A stretch of DNA of 40,536 nucleotides from Sorangium cellulosum (GCF_001589285.1 NZ_JEMA01000400.1:1-40536), one strand, 5' to 3'; positions 7,362 through 40,536 are shown, numbered from the stretch's first letter. Notes: a model not told the origin generated them from the letters alone. Made by a program: numbers and translations.

Positions 7362-8345
7362 TCACGCCACGCCCGGCCCCTCCGCGATGCCAAGCACCTT
7401 CCGCAGGTCCATCCCCGCGACGATCTCGGCGTTCTGCTGCACCCAGTCGACGAGCACGGGGCGCAGCGCGCGCGCGATCTCTTCCTTGACCAATCCCTCG
7501 ACAGCGCTCGGCCCGAGGCGCTGCGGGTCGAGCGCGACGCCGCCGCCGGCCACCAGGGCCCCGAACAGGCGCACGAGCGACTCGACCCCCGCCGCCTGGC
7601 CGGCCGCGCCGAGCGGCTCCACCCGCTCGATCGTGATGTCCCCGCCGCGGAGCACGACGAAGCGGCGCAGATCCGCCTGGTCGGCTCCGCCCTTGCGGAG
7701 CACCGCGGAGGAGCAGTCGACCTCGATGCGCCGCACGCGCGGCGCCGTCTCGATCTCTTCCCGCGTCCCCTCGACATCGACGCTCGCGGCGATCGTCGCG
7801 CCGGCCGGGATGCAGAACCCGTCCGGGCCCACCGCGCCCGCGAGCTCCTGGCGCAGCGTCAGCCGCGCGGAGAGGCGCGCGCCGCGGACGGGGGGACCGC
7901 CGCCGCCGGACTCGAGGTTCGAGAGCACCTGACGCACCGTCAGCACGAGATCGCGATCGCTCGTCGGGTCGTACGGGGGCATCGCCATGGGCGTCGAGGT
8001 GACGAGATCGCGCATGAACGCGCGGGCCTCGTCCTCGGCCGAACCCTTCCCCACCCGGACGAGGCCCCCCGTGTAGAAGACGTTGGGGGCCATCGCGCCC
8101 GTGCGAAAGTCGTACTCGACCTGCTGAAGCCCCATGTCGCCGAGCGGCGGCGGCAGGTCGATGACGAGGTACGGCTCGAACGCGACGCGCAGGAGCGCCG
8201 GCGCGAGCGTCAGACGGAGCGCTGTGGCGCTCGACGTCGCGAGGGCGGCCACCCCGGTGCGCTTCAGGGTGGTGCGCGCGGGGAGCTCGAACGAGATCGA
8301 GACCGACTCGAGATCGATCCACGAGGGCAGGAAGCTCCAGGCCAT
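7362..8345 (-). CDS. Conserved hypothetical protein
   Basis: A 327-residue protein I do not recognise. It has no signal peptide or clear transmembrane helix. The N-terminal half is rich in beta-strand-like segments (SVSISFELPARTTLKR, LLRVAFEPYLVIDLPPP). The middle holds VFYTGGLVRVGKG and a Gly/Pro-rich linker, and residues near 270-327 look helical (VEGLVKEEIARALRPVLVDW). The single-phase G/C third-position pattern over its full length supports real coding. The ATG at 8345 is chosen because further extension would overlap the divergent ferritin-like gene; no strong Shine-Dalgarno is visible. The 72 bases between the two starts must hold both promoters. A lipid- or membrane-associated role is possible from the hydrophobic strands, but this is speculation. 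Confidence 0.7.
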   Translation of the reverse strand: MAWSFLPSWIDLESVSISFELPARTTLKRTGVAALATSSATALRLTLAPALLRVAFEPYLVIDLPPPLGDMGLQQVEYDFRTGAMAPNVFYTGGLVRVGKGSAEDEARAFMRDLVTSTPMAMPPYDPTSDRDLVLTVRQVLSNLESGGGGPPVRGARLSARLTLRQELAGAVGPDGFCIPAGATIAASVDVEGTREEIETAPRVRRIEVDCSSAVLRKGGADQADLRRFVVLRGGDITIERVEPLGAAGQAAGVESLVRLFGALVAGGGVALDPQRLGPSAVEGLVKEEIARALRPVLVDWVQQNAEIVAGMDLRKVLGIAEGPGVA

Positions 8346-35089: not shown

Positions 35090-36607
35090 ATGCGATTCGC
35101 GATCTTCTCCTCTCTTCTCTCGCGCTCGTCGACAGCGCGCTCCTCGCTTCAGGGGCTCATCGCGCTCTCTGCGCTCGTGGTGCTCACCGGCGCCAAGGGG
35201 CAGGGCTGCGGGGGCGTGGACGAGCCGCAGCCGCCGCCCGATCCCGACTGCGGGCCTGGCTTCCACTGGGAGACGGTCTGTTCGCCGTGCGACGTCGGCG
35301 AGATGTGCGAAGCGCAGTGTGTGCCTGACGACCGCTGTCCTCGGGGGTGGCTCGAGCAGACCACCTGCGGCGGCAGCACCCCCGTCACGACCACCGCGGG
35401 CCAGGGCGGCTCGGCCGGCGGCGTCGGCATGCCTGTCGATCCGGGGTGCTGGACCGAGTGCGTGCCGCCGCCTCCGATGTGCCCGCCGGGCACCTACGAG
35501 CAGTTCGTGTGCGGCACCGGCAGCTCGACCAGCAGCACCACCGGCGGCGGCGGCTGGGGCAGCGCCAGCGCGGGCGGCGGCGGCTGGGGCATGGGCGGCT
35601 CTCCCGGCGACGCCGCCGCGGCGCCGCCTCCCGACATGTGCTGGACCGAGTGCGTGCCCGTGCCCTACTGCCCGCCGGGCACGACGGCGCATACCGTCTG
35701 CGAGGGCAGCAGCGGCGTCACGACGAGCAGCGTCAGCGTCGGCGTCGGCGGCTCCGGCGGCGCTGACAGCACAAGCGGCGTCGGCGGCTCCGGCGCGTGG
35801 GACGGCGGCGGCGGCGCCGGCGGGGACACGGCCCGGCCGGCTCCCCCCATCGACGGTTGCCGGACCGAGTGCCTCCCGGTGGAGCCCACCTGCCCGCCGG
35901 GCACGAGGGAGCAGACCGTGTGCGACGGCGGCAGCAGCGTCACCGTCGGCGTCGGCGGCACGGGCGGCGGCTCGGGCGCCAGCGAATGGGGCGGTTGCTG
36001 GACCGAGTGCATCCCTGTCGAGCCCTACTGCCCGCCGGGCACGAGGGAGCAGACCGTCTGCAACGACGGCGACGTCATGGTCGCCACCTCGGGCAGCACC
36101 GGCACCGGGTACGGCGGCAGCGGCGGCAGCGGCGGCGCGTATCCCGGCGGCGGCTGCTGGACCGAGTGCATCCCTGTCGAGCCCTTCTGCCCGCCGGACA
36201 CCATCCCGGCGACCGTCTGCGAGGACCCCATGCCCGGCACGTCCGGCAGCAGCGGCTCCGGCTACGGCGACGGCGACTTCGCGGACCCCATTCCGGGCAC
36301 GAGCGGCAGCAGCGGCACCGGCTACGGCGGCAGCGGCGGCGCGTACCCCGGCGGCGGCTGCTGGACCGAGTGCATCCCTGTCGAGCCCTACTGCCCGCCG
36401 GGAACGACCGAGCAGACGGTCTGCTCCGGCTCAGGCACCACCGGCACGGGCGGCGCGGGCGGGTACCCCGGCGAGTGCTGGACCGAGTGCCTGGAGCAGC
36501 CCACCTGCCCCCCCGAGGCGACCGTGCGGACCATCTGCGAGGAGCCGAGCGGCGGCGGCGGCTCCGGCCCGGTCTGCTGGACCGAGTGCGTCCTGATGCT
36601 GCCGTGA
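35090..36607 (+). CDS. Secreted Cys-module repeat protein with Gly/Ser linkers
   Basis: A 505-residue exported protein. The signal region (about residues 18-38, LIALSALVVLTGAKG) is followed by a Cys at about 42. A divergent Cys-rich N-terminal unit (CGPGFHWETVCSPCDVGEMC) precedes seven modules of the form C-W-T-E-C-x-P-(6-9)-C-P-P-G-T-(3-4)-T-V-C: CWTECVPPPPMCPPG, CWTECVPVPYCPPG, CRTECLPVEPTCPPG, CWTECIPVEPYCPPG, CWTECIPVEPFCPPD, CWTECIPVEPYCPPG and CWTECLEQPTCPPE. A final half module, CWTEC, ends the protein. Four cysteines per module suggest two disulfides each. Linkers are Gly/Ser/Thr-rich and up to about 45 residues, and several DNA copies are near-identical, pointing to recent duplication. 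ATG 35090 has GGAG 8 bases upstream. Probably a cell-surface or matrix protein. Confidence 0.88.
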   Translation: MRFAIFSSLLSRSSTARSSLQGLIALSALVVLTGAKGQGCGGVDEPQPPPDPDCGPGFHWETVCSPCDVGEMCEAQCVPDDRCPRGWLEQTTCGGSTPVTTTAGQGGSAGGVGMPVDPGCWTECVPPPPMCPPGTYEQFVCGTGSSTSSTTGGGGWGSASAGGGGWGMGGSPGDAAAAPPPDMCWTECVPVPYCPPGTTAHTVCEGSSGVTTSSVSVGVGGSGGADSTSGVGGSGAWDGGGGAGGDTARPAPPIDGCRTECLPVEPTCPPGTREQTVCDGGSSVTVGVGGTGGGSGASEWGGCWTECIPVEPYCPPGTREQTVCNDGDVMVATSGSTGTGYGGSGGSGGAYPGGGCWTECIPVEPFCPPDTIPATVCEDPMPGTSGSSGSGYGDGDFADPIPGTSGSSGTGYGGSGGAYPGGGCWTECIPVEPYCPPGTTEQTVCSGSGTTGTGGAGGYPGECWTECLEQPTCPPEATVRTICEEPSGGGGSGPVCWTECVLMLP

Positions 36608-36856: not shown

Positions 36857-37804
36857 ATGAGCCTGGCCCACCCATCAGCGTCCCTCTGCCGGGCTTTCAG
36901 GCGGCCCGTGGCCCTGCTGATCCTCGCGTGCGCGGCGCTCCCCCTCGCGGGGTGCCCCCTCCAGGACGCCATGATCGCCCGCGCCGACGGCGAGCCGTCG
37001 CCCCGCGGGGAGCCCGCCCCTCCCCCCGGGGACGAGATCACCCACGTCGAGGTCCCGGAGAACGCCGGTGGGGGGACACCCGGCGCGGGCGGCGGCAGCG
37101 GCGTCGAGGAGGGCAAAGCCCCCGTCGACGAGAACGCCGGCAACAGCGCCGGCCGAGAGCCTCCCGGCGATTCCGACGCGGTCCTGTGCACGGCGAGCTT
37201 TCCCATGACCCTGCGGGACTTCCCCAAGAAGCACCCGGATTTCGGGCCCTCCCAGACCACGAACGGGAAGAACGTCGAGGCCAAGAGCGAGCTCGAGAAC
37301 GGCAGGCCTGTCGACGCGAACCCGCCCTCGGACGAGATCAATCAGGACGACAGCTTCGACGAATGGTTCAAGGACGAGCCGGGCGTCAACATGACGTTCG
37401 ACAGGGTCATCCACCTCGACATGTGGAGCACCGGCGGCCACCTGGGCGGCAGGGATTTCTACTTCCTCGACGGCGTCGGCTTCGGCAACGAGGGCGAGGC
37501 GCACAACTTCGGCTTCACGGCGTCGTTCGAGCTGCCGTTCACCTACCGGATGGGGGCCTTCTTCTCCTTCGACGCGAGCGACGATGTCTGGATATCGATC
37601 GACGACAGCATCGTTGTCAGCCACTCCGTGCGCGACGGGGTGAACGGGACGACCGTCCGCCTGGACGACGAGGCCGCGAGGCTCCGCATGCGGCCCGGGT
37701 CGAAGCACAAGCTCAAGGTCTTCTACGCCGAGCGAGACGGCCGCTCCTCGGTGTTCCGGCTGAACACGGCGCTCGACGTCCCCTGCGAGCCGACCCTCCA
37801 GTGA
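36857..37804 (+). CDS. Fibro-slime domain lipoprotein
   Basis: A 315-residue lipoprotein. The signal ends LPLAGC with Cys33 as the lipidation site. A Pro/Gly/Glu-rich linker follows (about 40-105), then a fibro-slime (PA14-related) domain: FPMTLRDFPKKHPDFG, then DDSFDEWFKDEPGVNMTFDR, the DFYFLDGVGFGNEGEAHNFG strand, and FFSFDASDDVWISIDDSIVV, where the Asp cluster is typical. The family was named from Dictyostelium and Fibrobacter surface proteins and is expected to bind carbohydrate or form slime-type material. ATG 36857 follows GGAGGCGGTACC. It lies downstream of the Cys-module gene but after a strong terminator, so it has its own promoter. Both are probably surface proteins. Cys residues in the domain (DAVLCTAS, DVPCEPT) may form one disulfide. 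Confidence 0.9.
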   Translation: MSLAHPSASLCRAFRRPVALLILACAALPLAGCPLQDAMIARADGEPSPRGEPAPPPGDEITHVEVPENAGGGTPGAGGGSGVEEGKAPVDENAGNSAGREPPGDSDAVLCTASFPMTLRDFPKKHPDFGPSQTTNGKNVEAKSELENGRPVDANPPSDEINQDDSFDEWFKDEPGVNMTFDRVIHLDMWSTGGHLGGRDFYFLDGVGFGNEGEAHNFGFTASFELPFTYRMGAFFSFDASDDVWISIDDSIVVSHSVRDGVNGTTVRLDDEAARLRMRPGSKHKLKVFYAERDGRSSVFRLNTALDVPCEPTLQ

Positions 37805-37838: not shown

Positions 37839-38588
37839 TCAGCCCGCTCGCCGCGCGGCGCGCGCCGCCTTCGCGTACATGAAATCGAAGGCCCACGCCG
37901 GGAACACGGTGGCCGCGAAGCCCGCGCCGAGCCCGTAGAGGATCTCGTCGAGCGGGACGCCGAGGAGCGCCCTGCCCGGCAAGAGCACGCTGGGCCGCCA
38001 GGTGCGCGCGAACACGCCGGGCACGAGCGCCGCGAAGACGAGGCACAGGCCGAGGTAGAGGGCCGCCGACAGGAGCGCGCCGAGCAGGCTCGGCACGAGC
38101 AGGTCGCCGCGCGCCACGAGGAGGGCCGCGGCGGCCGCCGCCATCGCCGCCACGGCGGCGTAGAGGATCGGCACCCCGGCCGCCAGCAGCGCCCCGGCCA
38201 GCGCGAGCACGAGCGCGACGACCGCGGCCGCCCTCAACCACGGTCGGGCCGACCTCGACCACGTCGGGGTCGCCGGGGTCGCCTGGGTCGCCGGCGGGGC
38301 ACAGGGCACCGGCGTCCGGCGGAAGACAATCGCATAGGCGGTCGAGGAGAACGCGCTGAGCCCGATGAGGAACAGCAGGTCCTCGACGCCGAACCCGATC
38401 CGGTCGGCCAGGTCGAACAGGAACTTCGGGGTCCAGTACGCCGGGTAGAACAGCCGCTCGGTCGCCGCGAACGGCAGCGAGGCGAGCGCCGTCCGCCGCA
38501 TCAGGGCGCGCAGATCCGGGCGCGCGAGCCAGATGACGCCCCCTGGCAGGAGGAAGAGCAGCGAGAGCAGCAGAAACTCGTGGGTCAT
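37839..38588 (-). CDS. Tandem lycopene-cyclase-domain membrane protein
   Basis: A 249-residue polytopic membrane protein with about seven hydrophobic helices. Two copies of the lycopene-cyclase (CrtYc/CrtYd, TIGR03462-like) motif are visible: ERLFYPAYWTPKFLFDLADR with GFGVEDLLFLIGLSAF in the first half, and FARTWRPSVLLPGRALLG with VPLDEILYGLGAGFAATVFP in the second. The acidic P/G-x-D/E-E pairs are the conserved catalytic-type residues of these cyclases, so a fused CrtYcd-like cyclase is inferred. The first domain is followed by a Pro/Ala-Thr linker. Start at ATG 38588 fits the first helix; ATG 38609 is an alternative, because the start region is duplicated with its own Shine-Dalgarno. It is the last gene of the prenyltransferase operon. 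The substrate is unknown: carotenoid or other isoprenoid. Confidence 0.7.
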   Translation of the reverse strand: MTHEFLLLSLLFLLPGGVIWLARPDLRALMRRTALASLPFAATERLFYPAYWTPKFLFDLADRIGFGVEDLLFLIGLSAFSSTAYAIVFRRTPVPCAPPATQATPATPTWSRSARPWLRAAAVVALVLALAGALLAAGVPILYAAVAAMAAAAAALLVARGDLLVPSLLGALLSAALYLGLCLVFAALVPGVFARTWRPSVLLPGRALLGVPLDEILYGLGAGFAATVFPAWAFDFMYAKAARAARRAG

Positions 38589-38624
38589 CGCGCCGCCCTC
38601 CTCGGTCATCGCGCCGCCCCCTCC

Positions 38625-39545
38625 TCAGCGCGCGGCGTTCGCTAGCCACGCCGTGACGGCGACAAGCGACAGCGTCGCCGCGCCCGCGGCCCCCACCCGG
38701 ACCAGCAGCAGCCGCGAGCCGGGCGGCGCCGGCCGGGCCAGCAGCACGACGAGCGCCGCCGCCGCCGGGATCAGCAGCCCCGCGCCAGGGCGCAAGCCCG
38801 CCGCGCCCAGGCCGACAGGCGCGAGCAGGAGCGACAGCCCGTTCAGGAGCGCCACCCACCGCGCGGCCCGCTCCCCGCCCACGCGCACGGGCACCGTCCG
38901 CTTGCCGCTCTCGCGGTCCGAGGGCTCGTCGGGGAGCGCCGTCGCGATCGCGCAGCCGAGGTGGCTCGGCAGCAGGCACGCGAGCAGCGCGACAGGGAAG
39001 CGATCGAGGGCGCCCCCCTGCGCCACGTAGCCGTAGAGCGGCAGGACCACGCCGACGCCCACCACCTGGAGCAGCTCCCCGCCGCCGCTGTACGAGAGGC
39101 GGAGCGGCGGGTAGCTGTAGGCCCAGAGCAGCAGGAGCGCCGCGATCGCGAGGGGCACGAGGAGCGGCGCCGCGGGCGCCGGCACGGTGGCGGCGAGCCA
39201 CGCCGAGACGACCAGGAGCGCCGCGGCGCAACCGAGGGCCGCGGCGCCGAGCGCGCGCGGCGAGAGGCGCCCCTCGACAAGCACGCGCGAGCCGCCCGAG
39301 AACGGCGTGGCGGTGCGGTTGCGGCGGTCGGTCTCCTGGTCGGCGACGTCGTTGGCGTGGACGATGAAGAGCTGGTCGAGCAGGCCGAAGAGATGGACAG
39401 CCGCCAGCGTCGCGAGGTCGAGCGGGCGGCCGGCGGCCCGCGCGCCAAGGAGCTGCCCGAGCAGCAGCGGGAGCGCGATGGTCGGCTGCGAGGCCAGCCG
39501 CGACGCCCGGATCCAGGCCGAGAGCGCCCCCGGCCGGGCGCTCAT
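38625..39545 (-). CDS. UbiA-family prenyltransferase
   Basis: A 306-residue integral membrane protein of the UbiA/MenA superfamily, with about eight to nine hydrophobic helices. The first prenyl-diphosphate-binding motif is HANDVADQETD (Asn65, Asp66, Asp69, Asp73), and the second is PDEPSDRESGKRT (Asp206, Asp210), each chelating Mg2+. The GGSRVLVEGRLS loop and WAYSYPPLRLSY follow the MenA-like branch. It would transfer a prenyl chain from a diphosphate to an aromatic or isoprenoid acceptor. The start is ATG 39545, overlapping the stop of the upstream gene (ATGA), and the stop is 15 bases before the ATG 38609 of the cyclase-domain gene, so they form an operon. C50-carotenoid elongases (CrtEb) are in this superfamily and pair with CrtYe/Yf cyclases, a possible parallel. 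Confidence 0.9.
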   Translation of the reverse strand: MSARPGALSAWIRASRLASQPTIALPLLLGQLLGARAAGRPLDLATLAAVHLFGLLDQLFIVHANDVADQETDRRNRTATPFSGGSRVLVEGRLSPRALGAAALGCAAALLVVSAWLAATVPAPAAPLLVPLAIAALLLLWAYSYPPLRLSYSGGGELLQVVGVGVVLPLYGYVAQGGALDRFPVALLACLLPSHLGCAIATALPDEPSDRESGKRTVPVRVGGERAARWVALLNGLSLLLAPVGLGAAGLRPGAGLLIPAAAALVVLLARPAPPGSRLLLVRVGAAGAATLSLVAVTAWLANAAR

Positions 39546-40276
39546 CGCCGGTCGCCCCGCGACAGGCCGAGGCGCTCGGCCAGCTTGGCGCGCAGCTCGG
39601 TGAACGGCAGGTCCCAGCGGCGCTCGCCGTCGAGGCGCCACGCCTTGAGCGGGATGAGGTCGACCTGGGCGAGCAGGTGGTGGAGCTGCGACTCCTCGCG
39701 CGGCTCGCGGATGAACGAGAAGGGGTTGCGGAACTCCCGGCCGTTGAGCTGCGAGTACTTGCGGTCGTTGCTGGCCACGAGCTCGATGAGCGCCTGCTGC
39801 CGGCCGTCGAGGTAGTCGAAGAACGCGAGATCGAACGGCCCGACGCCCGCGCGCTCGTCCGGCTTGCGCATCACCCAGCGGGCCCAGTCGTAGCCGTAGA
39901 GGAAGTCGTGCGCGTAGCGGAAGCGCAGCTTCGACTTGTTGCCGAAGCCGAGGCAGAGCGCCACCACGCGCCGGGAGAAGTCGCCGATCGCTGGCGCGCT
40001 CCCGGCCTGCCACATGCAGCAGGCGAGGTAGTCGAGGTCCCAGAAGATGTTGTCGGGGAAGTTGTCGGCGACCGCGCAGATCACCTCGCCGAGCGCGCCG
40101 ACGAAGGCGCGCGCGCGCTCGGCGTCCTCGCTGCCGTCCATGATCTGCTCGACCAGCGCGACGGGGGTGGGCGCGCACGGCCGGCCCGGGGCGACCGAGG
40201 CCCGCGCGCCGAGCAGCGGGGTGAGGCGCGCGAGCTCGTCGCGCGCGTCGTCGGGGAGGACGGGGATCCCTGTCAC
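39542..40276 (-). CDS. Hypothetical protein in a prenyltransferase operon
   Basis: A 244-residue protein I do not recognise. No signal peptide or membrane helix is obvious. The start is a GTG at 40276 overlapping the previous stop, and the stop overlaps the prenyltransferase start, so it is translated as part of one unit. Its most conserved-looking stretch is residues 60-130: ALGEVICAVADNFPDNIFWD, LDYLACCMWQAG, and FGNKSKLRFRYAHDFLYGYD, rich in Trp, Tyr, Asp and Cys (Cys67, Cys86, Cys87, Cys108). A second conserved-looking block is ASNDRKYSQLNGREFRNPFS. The run of Asp/Asn/His residues could bind metal or a diphosphate, but no known motif is seen. Context points to isoprenoid modification. Family-level identification needs a structure search. 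Confidence 0.75.
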   Translation of the reverse strand: MTGIPVLPDDARDELARLTPLLGARASVAPGRPCAPTPVALVEQIMDGSEDAERARAFVGALGEVICAVADNFPDNIFWDLDYLACCMWQAGSAPAIGDFSRRVVALCLGFGNKSKLRFRYAHDFLYGYDWARWVMRKPDERAGVGPFDLAFFDYLDGRQQALIELVASNDRKYSQLNGREFRNPFSFIREPREESQLHHLLAQVDLIPLKAWRLDGERRWDLPFTELRAKLAERLGLSRGDRR

Positions 40277-40536
40277 GCCGGCACCCCCCCGGCGCGGAGC
40301 CCGGCGGCGAGCACCGCCGCCGACAGCGCGGCCGTCCCCCACCAGATCGCGCGGTGGAGCTCGCGCTTGTAGGCCGCCTGGGCGGCGAAGGCGTTGGTCA
40401 CCGCCGCCGGGCTCCTCCGGACGAGCCGCGCCCCGAAGTGGAGCGCGACGGCCGCCGCGGGCGCGACCGACCACGGCGGCGGGGCGGGGTGGCCGGCGAG
40501 CGACGCCGCGGGCCAGAGGACCGCGCCGAGGCCGAG
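40273..40536 (-). CDS. Membrane protein, C-terminal part (cut by window edge)
   Basis: The reading frame from the right edge is open and ends at a TGA at 40273-40275 that overlaps the GTG of the 244-residue gene. The 87 visible residues include a hydrophobic strand-and-helix segment (PWSVAPAAAVALHFGARLVR), a polar helix (FAAQAAYKRELHRAIWWG) and a final hydrophobic helix (AALSAAVLAAGLRAGGVPA). This is consistent with the C-terminal helices of a membrane protein, perhaps a second UbiA-type prenyltransferase, but the diagnostic motifs are outside the window. It is the first visible gene of the overlapping operon. Confidence 0.7.
   Translation of the reverse strand, partial: LGLGAVLWPAASLAGHPAPPPWSVAPAAAVALHFGARLVRRSPAAVTNAFAAQAAYKRELHRAIWWGTAALSAAVLAAGLRAGGVPA

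Follow-up and report, generated by a model that had tools for sequence, protein, structure and literature searches.

Enzymes of the UbiA superfamily serve the routes to vitamin K, ubiquinone, chlorophyll, heme A precursors and archaeal lipids. The described systems closest to the one considered here are the C50 carotenoid systems of the CrtEb with CrtYe/CrtYf and LbtA types, in which a UbiA-family enzyme is paired with cyclase domains of the CrtYcd family, and the ebo cluster, a patchy yet conserved bacterial operon that combines the UbiA-superfamily protein EboC with the orphan EboA and whose product long went unidentified (PMC5133447; Ubi-297, PMC9235831). Here we analyze a window of 40,536 nucleotides from Sorangium cellulosum (NZ_JEMA01000400.1:1-40536; contig C398 of an 11.9 Mb genome), in which consecutive genes of an operon on the minus strand, in the order UbiA1–U244–UbiA2–LycC, overlap or nearly abut. 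UbiA1, U244 and UbiA2 form a core that is gained and lost together, with UbiA1 and U244 usually adjacent and LycC an optional partner of UbiA2. Our leading reading, to which we give somewhat less than an even chance, is that the operon is a version of a conserved isoprenoid-modifying module whose product would be something other than a menaquinone or a C50 carotenoid.

The core emerges from a comparison of gene neighborhoods in other myxobacteria, which the first-pass annotation of the window had proposed and which we ran on 379 genomes of the phylum (one per species; taken as Myxococcota from the named relatives). U244, UbiA1 and UbiA2 are each present in 41 of the 379; U244 shares 40 genomes with UbiA1 and 40 with UbiA2, and all three occur together in 39, with core-positive genomes distributed over seven families. 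For these counts UbiA1 and UbiA2 each had a separate profile, with calls made above ~200 bits; a UbiA1 cut short at the end of its contig (G279) was included, and a 42nd U244 match at an E-value of 6e-4 was omitted. Uncorrected for kinship of the genomes, the Fisher p value is 8e-52 for each U244–UbiA pair and 3e-48 for UbiA1–UbiA2. A UbiA gene lies directly 5′ of U244 on the same strand at 34 of 40 loci, and UbiA2 adjoins U244 at 20 of 40, mostly in convergent orientation. UbiA1, U244 and UbiA2 recur in matching order at locus L152 of G410, a genome sampled from the cyanobacterial phylum; a plasmid search returned neither U244 nor UbiA1. Three strains of Sorangium cellulosum, and Archangium, carry close counterparts of the entire operon, with U244 identity at 64-88%. 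That the genes have no joint function and are merely neighbors kept together by descent draws on the relatedness of many sampled genomes and on the synteny of the entire region in close genera, but co-occurrence also holds where the genes are unlinked (in G330 and G126, for example, UbiA1 and U244 are on separate contigs) and reaches across distant families and two phyla. This reading is already largely refuted, and we give it almost no weight.

The layout of the operon stands as first annotated. The UbiA1 stop overlaps the U244 start in GTGA (40273-40276), the U244 stop overlaps the UbiA2 start in ATGA (39542-39545), and 15 bases separate the UbiA2 stop from the earlier of two LycC ATG codons (38609). 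U244 (39542..40276, minus strand) runs for 244 residues from a GTG at 40276 to a stop at 39542, and UbiA2 (38625..39545, minus strand) for 306 residues from the ATG at 39545 to a stop at 38625. The annotation of UbiA2 as a UbiA prenyltransferase is borne out by its score with Pfam UbiA (PF01040), 83.1 bits against a cut-off of 34.2. The gene at the edge of the window (40273..40536, minus strand) had been entered as a separate, unassigned membrane protein because the window ends at an N and just the 87 C-terminal residues of UbiA1 could be seen. In the contig, the last base of the window abuts this N (~40537; ~6538 of locus L009), which is flanked by a 39-bp duplicated overlap, and together they are a scaffold-join artifact that hides UbiA1 from the window. 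Rejoined across the N, the gene starts at contig position 41272, outside the window, and encodes 319 residues, those spanning the N being taken from the duplicated overlap with support from relatives. It scores 74.9 bits with the same Pfam model and has relatives of 77-87% identity in Archangium and Sorangium. The operon has two UbiA genes in place of the one first recognized.

Both proteins read as UbiA-superfamily intramembrane prenyltransferases with intact Mg2+/diphosphate motifs. NDxxDxxxD and DxxxD are invariant in UbiA1 (n = 30 sequences) and in UbiA2 (n = 26). The first motif of UbiA2 is NDVADQETD (39327..39353, minus strand; DxxDxxxD), in which N65, D66, D69 and D73 are invariant among the 26 relatives, and the second is DEPSD (38916..38930, minus strand), with D206 and D210 invariant. 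These sites bear on the possibility that the two proteins are UbiA-type terpene synthases, which would ionize and cyclize prenyl diphosphates without an acceptor to yield terpene hydrocarbons, LycC adding a further ring. There is precedent in the intramembrane (UbiA-type) terpene synthases described in fungi (PMC9835599), and the operon has a cyclase-type partner and no acceptor-forming enzyme. Retention of the full two-motif metal site and of the overall prenyltransferase form in both UbiA proteins argues against such a role, which we regard as unlikely while keeping it in view.

The two proteins might also be extra MenA/UbiA enzymes of an ordinary menaquinone or ubiquinone pathway. Their top NCBIfam matches are MenA models (MenA/PRK06080 for UbiA2), and MenA shares the superfamily and a Y-x-G-x-GE-like stretch. 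However, these matches are weak, and neither protein reaches the cut-off of any NCBIfam model: against the MenA cut-off of 264 bits, UbiA2 scores 51.8 and UbiA1 32.0, whereas the genome's own MenA, encoded elsewhere beside a frame that reads as MenD, scores 328. The spacing of the first motif also differs, being DxxDxxxxxD as a rule in MenA (PMC9235831) and NDVFDHEKGAD in the Sorangium MenA, but DxxDxxxD in all relatives of UbiA1 and UbiA2. In a maximum-likelihood tree UbiA1 (93/92) and UbiA2 (100/97) form separate groups outside MenA, HPT, ChlG, CtaB, UbiA and EboC; this tree includes three myxobacterial MenA sequences, its deep branches are weak, and several references, cyanobacterial MenA among them, dropped out of it. 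Upstream genes, to which the first-pass annotation had pointed as a place where an ordinary quinone pathway might show itself, amount to UbiA1: no other gene was seen in the 968 further bases up to the contig end. An ordinary quinone pathway is, in our estimation, distinctly improbable.

A likeness to the ebo cluster lies in a patchy yet conserved set of genes in which an orphan protein accompanies a UbiA-superfamily protein of a clade of its own. That cluster, however, has a single UbiA protein, EboC, with hydrolase, sugar-phosphate-cyclase and isomerase partners, whereas the present operon draws on two UbiA clades, and its orphan is unrelated to EboA; none of these partners is present. EboC sequences fall outside the UbiA1 and UbiA2 groups in the tree, and the NCBIfam EboC model NF035940 matches neither protein at E ≤ 1. 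Elsewhere in the genome there are an EboC-like protein, a decaprenyl-phosphate phosphoribosyltransferase and a further UbiA-family gene that we read as CtaB from its SCO-like neighbor.

The last gene of the operon, LycC (37839..38588, minus strand), encodes 249 residues from the ATG at 38588, the start favored by relatives, or 256 from the ATG at 38609. These two in-frame starts result from a 21-bp tandem duplication (38583..38623, minus strand), which doubles the ribosome-binding-like GAGGAGGG together with the start codon. LycC reads as a fused tandem membrane protein of the lycopene-cyclase type. The first-pass annotation had described two CrtYc/CrtYd-like motifs in it and had flagged a possible lack of relationship to CrtYc/d; the domain search argues for the relationship, with Pfam Lycopene_cyc (PF18916) matching residues 149-237 of the second half at 44.1 bits (cut-off 27; relatives 48-64 bits). 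The first half has no domain-model match, and the case for its motif is the FYPxYW...GFGxED pattern seen in the alignment with relatives. Like the CrtYcd/PF18916 lycopene cyclases, LycC appears to have two fused cyclase-type halves, and its Pfam match is above the cut-off; it differs in that its subfamily has diverged, shows FYPxYW in the first half, and has relatives that stand beside UbiA2 or alone in plasmid lipid or stress gene sets. In strain So0157-2 (L010:9966-10399), the linker between the LycC halves has grown to 16 exact repeats of a 27-bp unit, with the frame kept.

The LycC subfamily is found in four of the 379 genomes, all core-positive (p = 1e-4); it is linked to the core in the window genome and in G087 and unlinked in the other two. 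The remaining 35 of the 39 core genomes are without it. A plasmid of Ilyobacter polytropus (Fusobacteriota), pILYOP01, carries relatives of LycC and UbiA2 as an isolated pair, and this UbiA2 groups with the LycC-linked UbiA2 proteins in the tree; because of this pair, UbiA2–LycC looks like a sub-unit that joins UbiA1–U244. The LycC-like genes on plasmids of Croceicoccus and Methylophaga (L160, L161) come without a UbiA gene; isoprenylcysteine methyltransferase genes lie nearby, joined in Methylophaga by lipid-modification genes, a setting that suggests non-carotenoid roles for the subfamily.

The first-pass annotation had compared the operon with C50 elongase and cyclase clusters. In such a route UbiA2 and/or UbiA1 would elongate lycopene as CrtEb does, and LycC would cyclize the ends as CrtYe/CrtYf do. 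LycC is a real CrtYcd-type homolog, tied to UbiA2 in several lineages; it is the sole PF18916 protein of the genome, and elsewhere genes that read as CrtC, CrtD and CrtE form a carotenoid cluster. The gene context sets the operon apart from the C50 systems, however, the core being UbiA1–U244–UbiA2, two UbiA proteins and an orphan that mostly occur without a cyclase. No crt genes were recognized near the window unit or its relatives at L010-L014, L049-L088, L152 and L158 by BLAST and reading, which did not scan every neighbor, and none lies within ~9 kb of the Ilyobacter pair. The module occupies ~11% of the sampled genomes, whereas carotenoid genes are near-universal, being present in all but two of the myxobacteria examined in PMC9304148, and the best, weak matches of the UbiA proteins are to MenA models. 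Carotenoid cyclization in Sorangiineae is reported as CruA-type (PMC9304148), which makes a C50 product unlikely; the CruA assignment is that of the cited study, as a PF05834 search of this genome gave short FAD-domain matches only. Taken with the absence of LycC from most core genomes, we consider a C50 carotenoid route improbable.

The orphan of the core, U244, had been described as an unrecognized soluble protein, and so it stands, alone and as a set of 49 sequences. It has no hydrophobic segment, is predicted to be mainly helical, and has no family match in Pfam, NCBIfam, PHROGs, PADLOC or the PDB sequences. Among the loci we found 50 relatives, 49 of which were aligned; when these 49 were scanned against Pfam and NCBIfam, only scattered matches appeared (E ~0.003-1), nearly all to single members, and the U244 profile matched mS33 alone among PDB sequences (E 0.77), which we take as chance. 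By these searches U244 represents a protein family unnamed in any of the databases. Fourteen positions are invariant in the 49 relatives, namely D80, Y121, H123, D124, G128, W131, F152, R183, N184, F188, R190, E195, P209 and R229, and the polar ones among them (D80, Y121, H123, D124, R183, N184, R190, E195 and R229) appear enzyme-like. A structure model built from 10 sequences reached a pLDDT of 73.9; its best Foldseek match has an E-value of 0.96, and VIA-align Z values of up to 7.9 are to designed helical repeats. A second model, with a Nostoc member placed first, was worse (pLDDT 60.9), and neither model is strong enough to assign a fold.

The weak Foldseek matches of U244 include several class I terpene synthases, which have E > 4 and are unusable. 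COQ4 is a helical quinone-pathway partner; it may yet be a relative of U244 but has no support, with no profile match at E ≤ 10 and no place among the 50 matches listed from either fold search. A defense system was considered as well and dropped, PADLOC giving no match.

Beyond the core, a pair of genes for ATPases of the ArsA/Get3 family adjoins UbiA2 at 16 of 35 UbiA2 loci (L052, L053, L055, L058, L059, L061, L063, L064, L072, L073, L086, L087, L202, L206, L208 and L209). At 15 of the 16 the pair is divergent, head-to-head, at 29-270 bp from UbiA2, and at the last it is rearranged and still adjacent; in Sorangium it does not adjoin UbiA2. This extended neighborhood suggests that the ArsA-type ATPases may be further members of the system.

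The module is most likely an undescribed prenyl-lipid pathway consisting of two prenyl transfers and an optional chain cyclization, with the product, the substrate and the role of U244 as we infer them here. The core genes probably make an as yet undescribed membrane isoprenoid, because they travel together across distant bacteria, and the proposal of an isoprenoid-modifying operon with an undescribed product in the first-pass annotation is supported; a literature search on this gene set returned nothing on point. UbiA1 and UbiA2 would carry out two different prenyl transfers of one pathway, probably onto one small polar or aromatic acceptor. Two points suggest a chain of two enzymes, namely that neither catalytic site is damaged and that genomes hardly ever lose either gene, though one of the two proteins could be regulatory instead. 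U244 may act on this acceptor at the membrane face of UbiA1, preparing, delivering or modifying it, and LycC, where present, would close a ring at the last isoprene unit of the attached chain, in the manner of CrtYcd-type cyclases acting on lycopene. We would expect the product to be a membrane prenyl lipid or meroterpenoid. In its fullest form, which we put forward as a tentative possibility, the proposal takes in the linked ArsA-type ATPase pair and, optionally, LycC: with these, UbiA1–U244–UbiA2 would produce a bacterial membrane isoprenoid of an undescribed class through two successive intramembrane prenylations, and U244 would represent a new family of enzymes or carriers that heterocystous cyanobacteria share.

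Several observations weigh against this proposal. Nostocales have U244 without UbiA1 or UbiA2 (L015-L018, L153-L157), mostly in a conserved housekeeping neighborhood that includes YjbQ-like and Nif3-like genes but lacks UbiA; a search for orthologs of UbiA1 and UbiA2 in these U244-bearing genomes found none, the sixth UbiA protein there being EboC-like. Myxococcus sp. RHSTA-1-4 (L014:8001-8720) has a U244 of 59% identity to that of the window, and its three UbiA genes are unlike UbiA1 and UbiA2. Because of these cases, U244 does not strictly need the two prenyltransferases. In Sorangium So ceGT47 (L011:~7460-7800) UbiA1 is reduced to about its first 70 codons, while U244, UbiA2 and LycC are intact. 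Shared descent makes the genome counts non-independent, and the Fisher p values overstate the number of independent events. The operon contains neither an aromatic-acceptor gene nor an isoprenyl-diphosphate synthase gene, and the U244 models reach only the pLDDT values given above. An inverted repeat lies near the UbiA1 remnant of So ceGT47, a natural deletion that lends itself to lipid comparison.

On its 3′ side the operon faces a convergent gene for a fibro-slime-domain protein (plus strand, 36857-37804; 52 bits, cut-off 45). This gene is preceded by one for a 505-residue Cys-rich protein (plus strand, 35090-36607) built of repeats such as CWTECIPVEPYCPPGT.

With a three-gene module of two unassigned UbiA clades and an unnamed protein family, about one ninth of the sampled genomes of the phylum would seem to make a membrane lipid still missing from the record. 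As a small, deletable gene set with an optional cyclase, it offers a handle for finding the compound. The module also indicates that a gene labeled "lycopene cyclase" can lie next to one for a prenyltransferase and apart from any carotenoid cluster.

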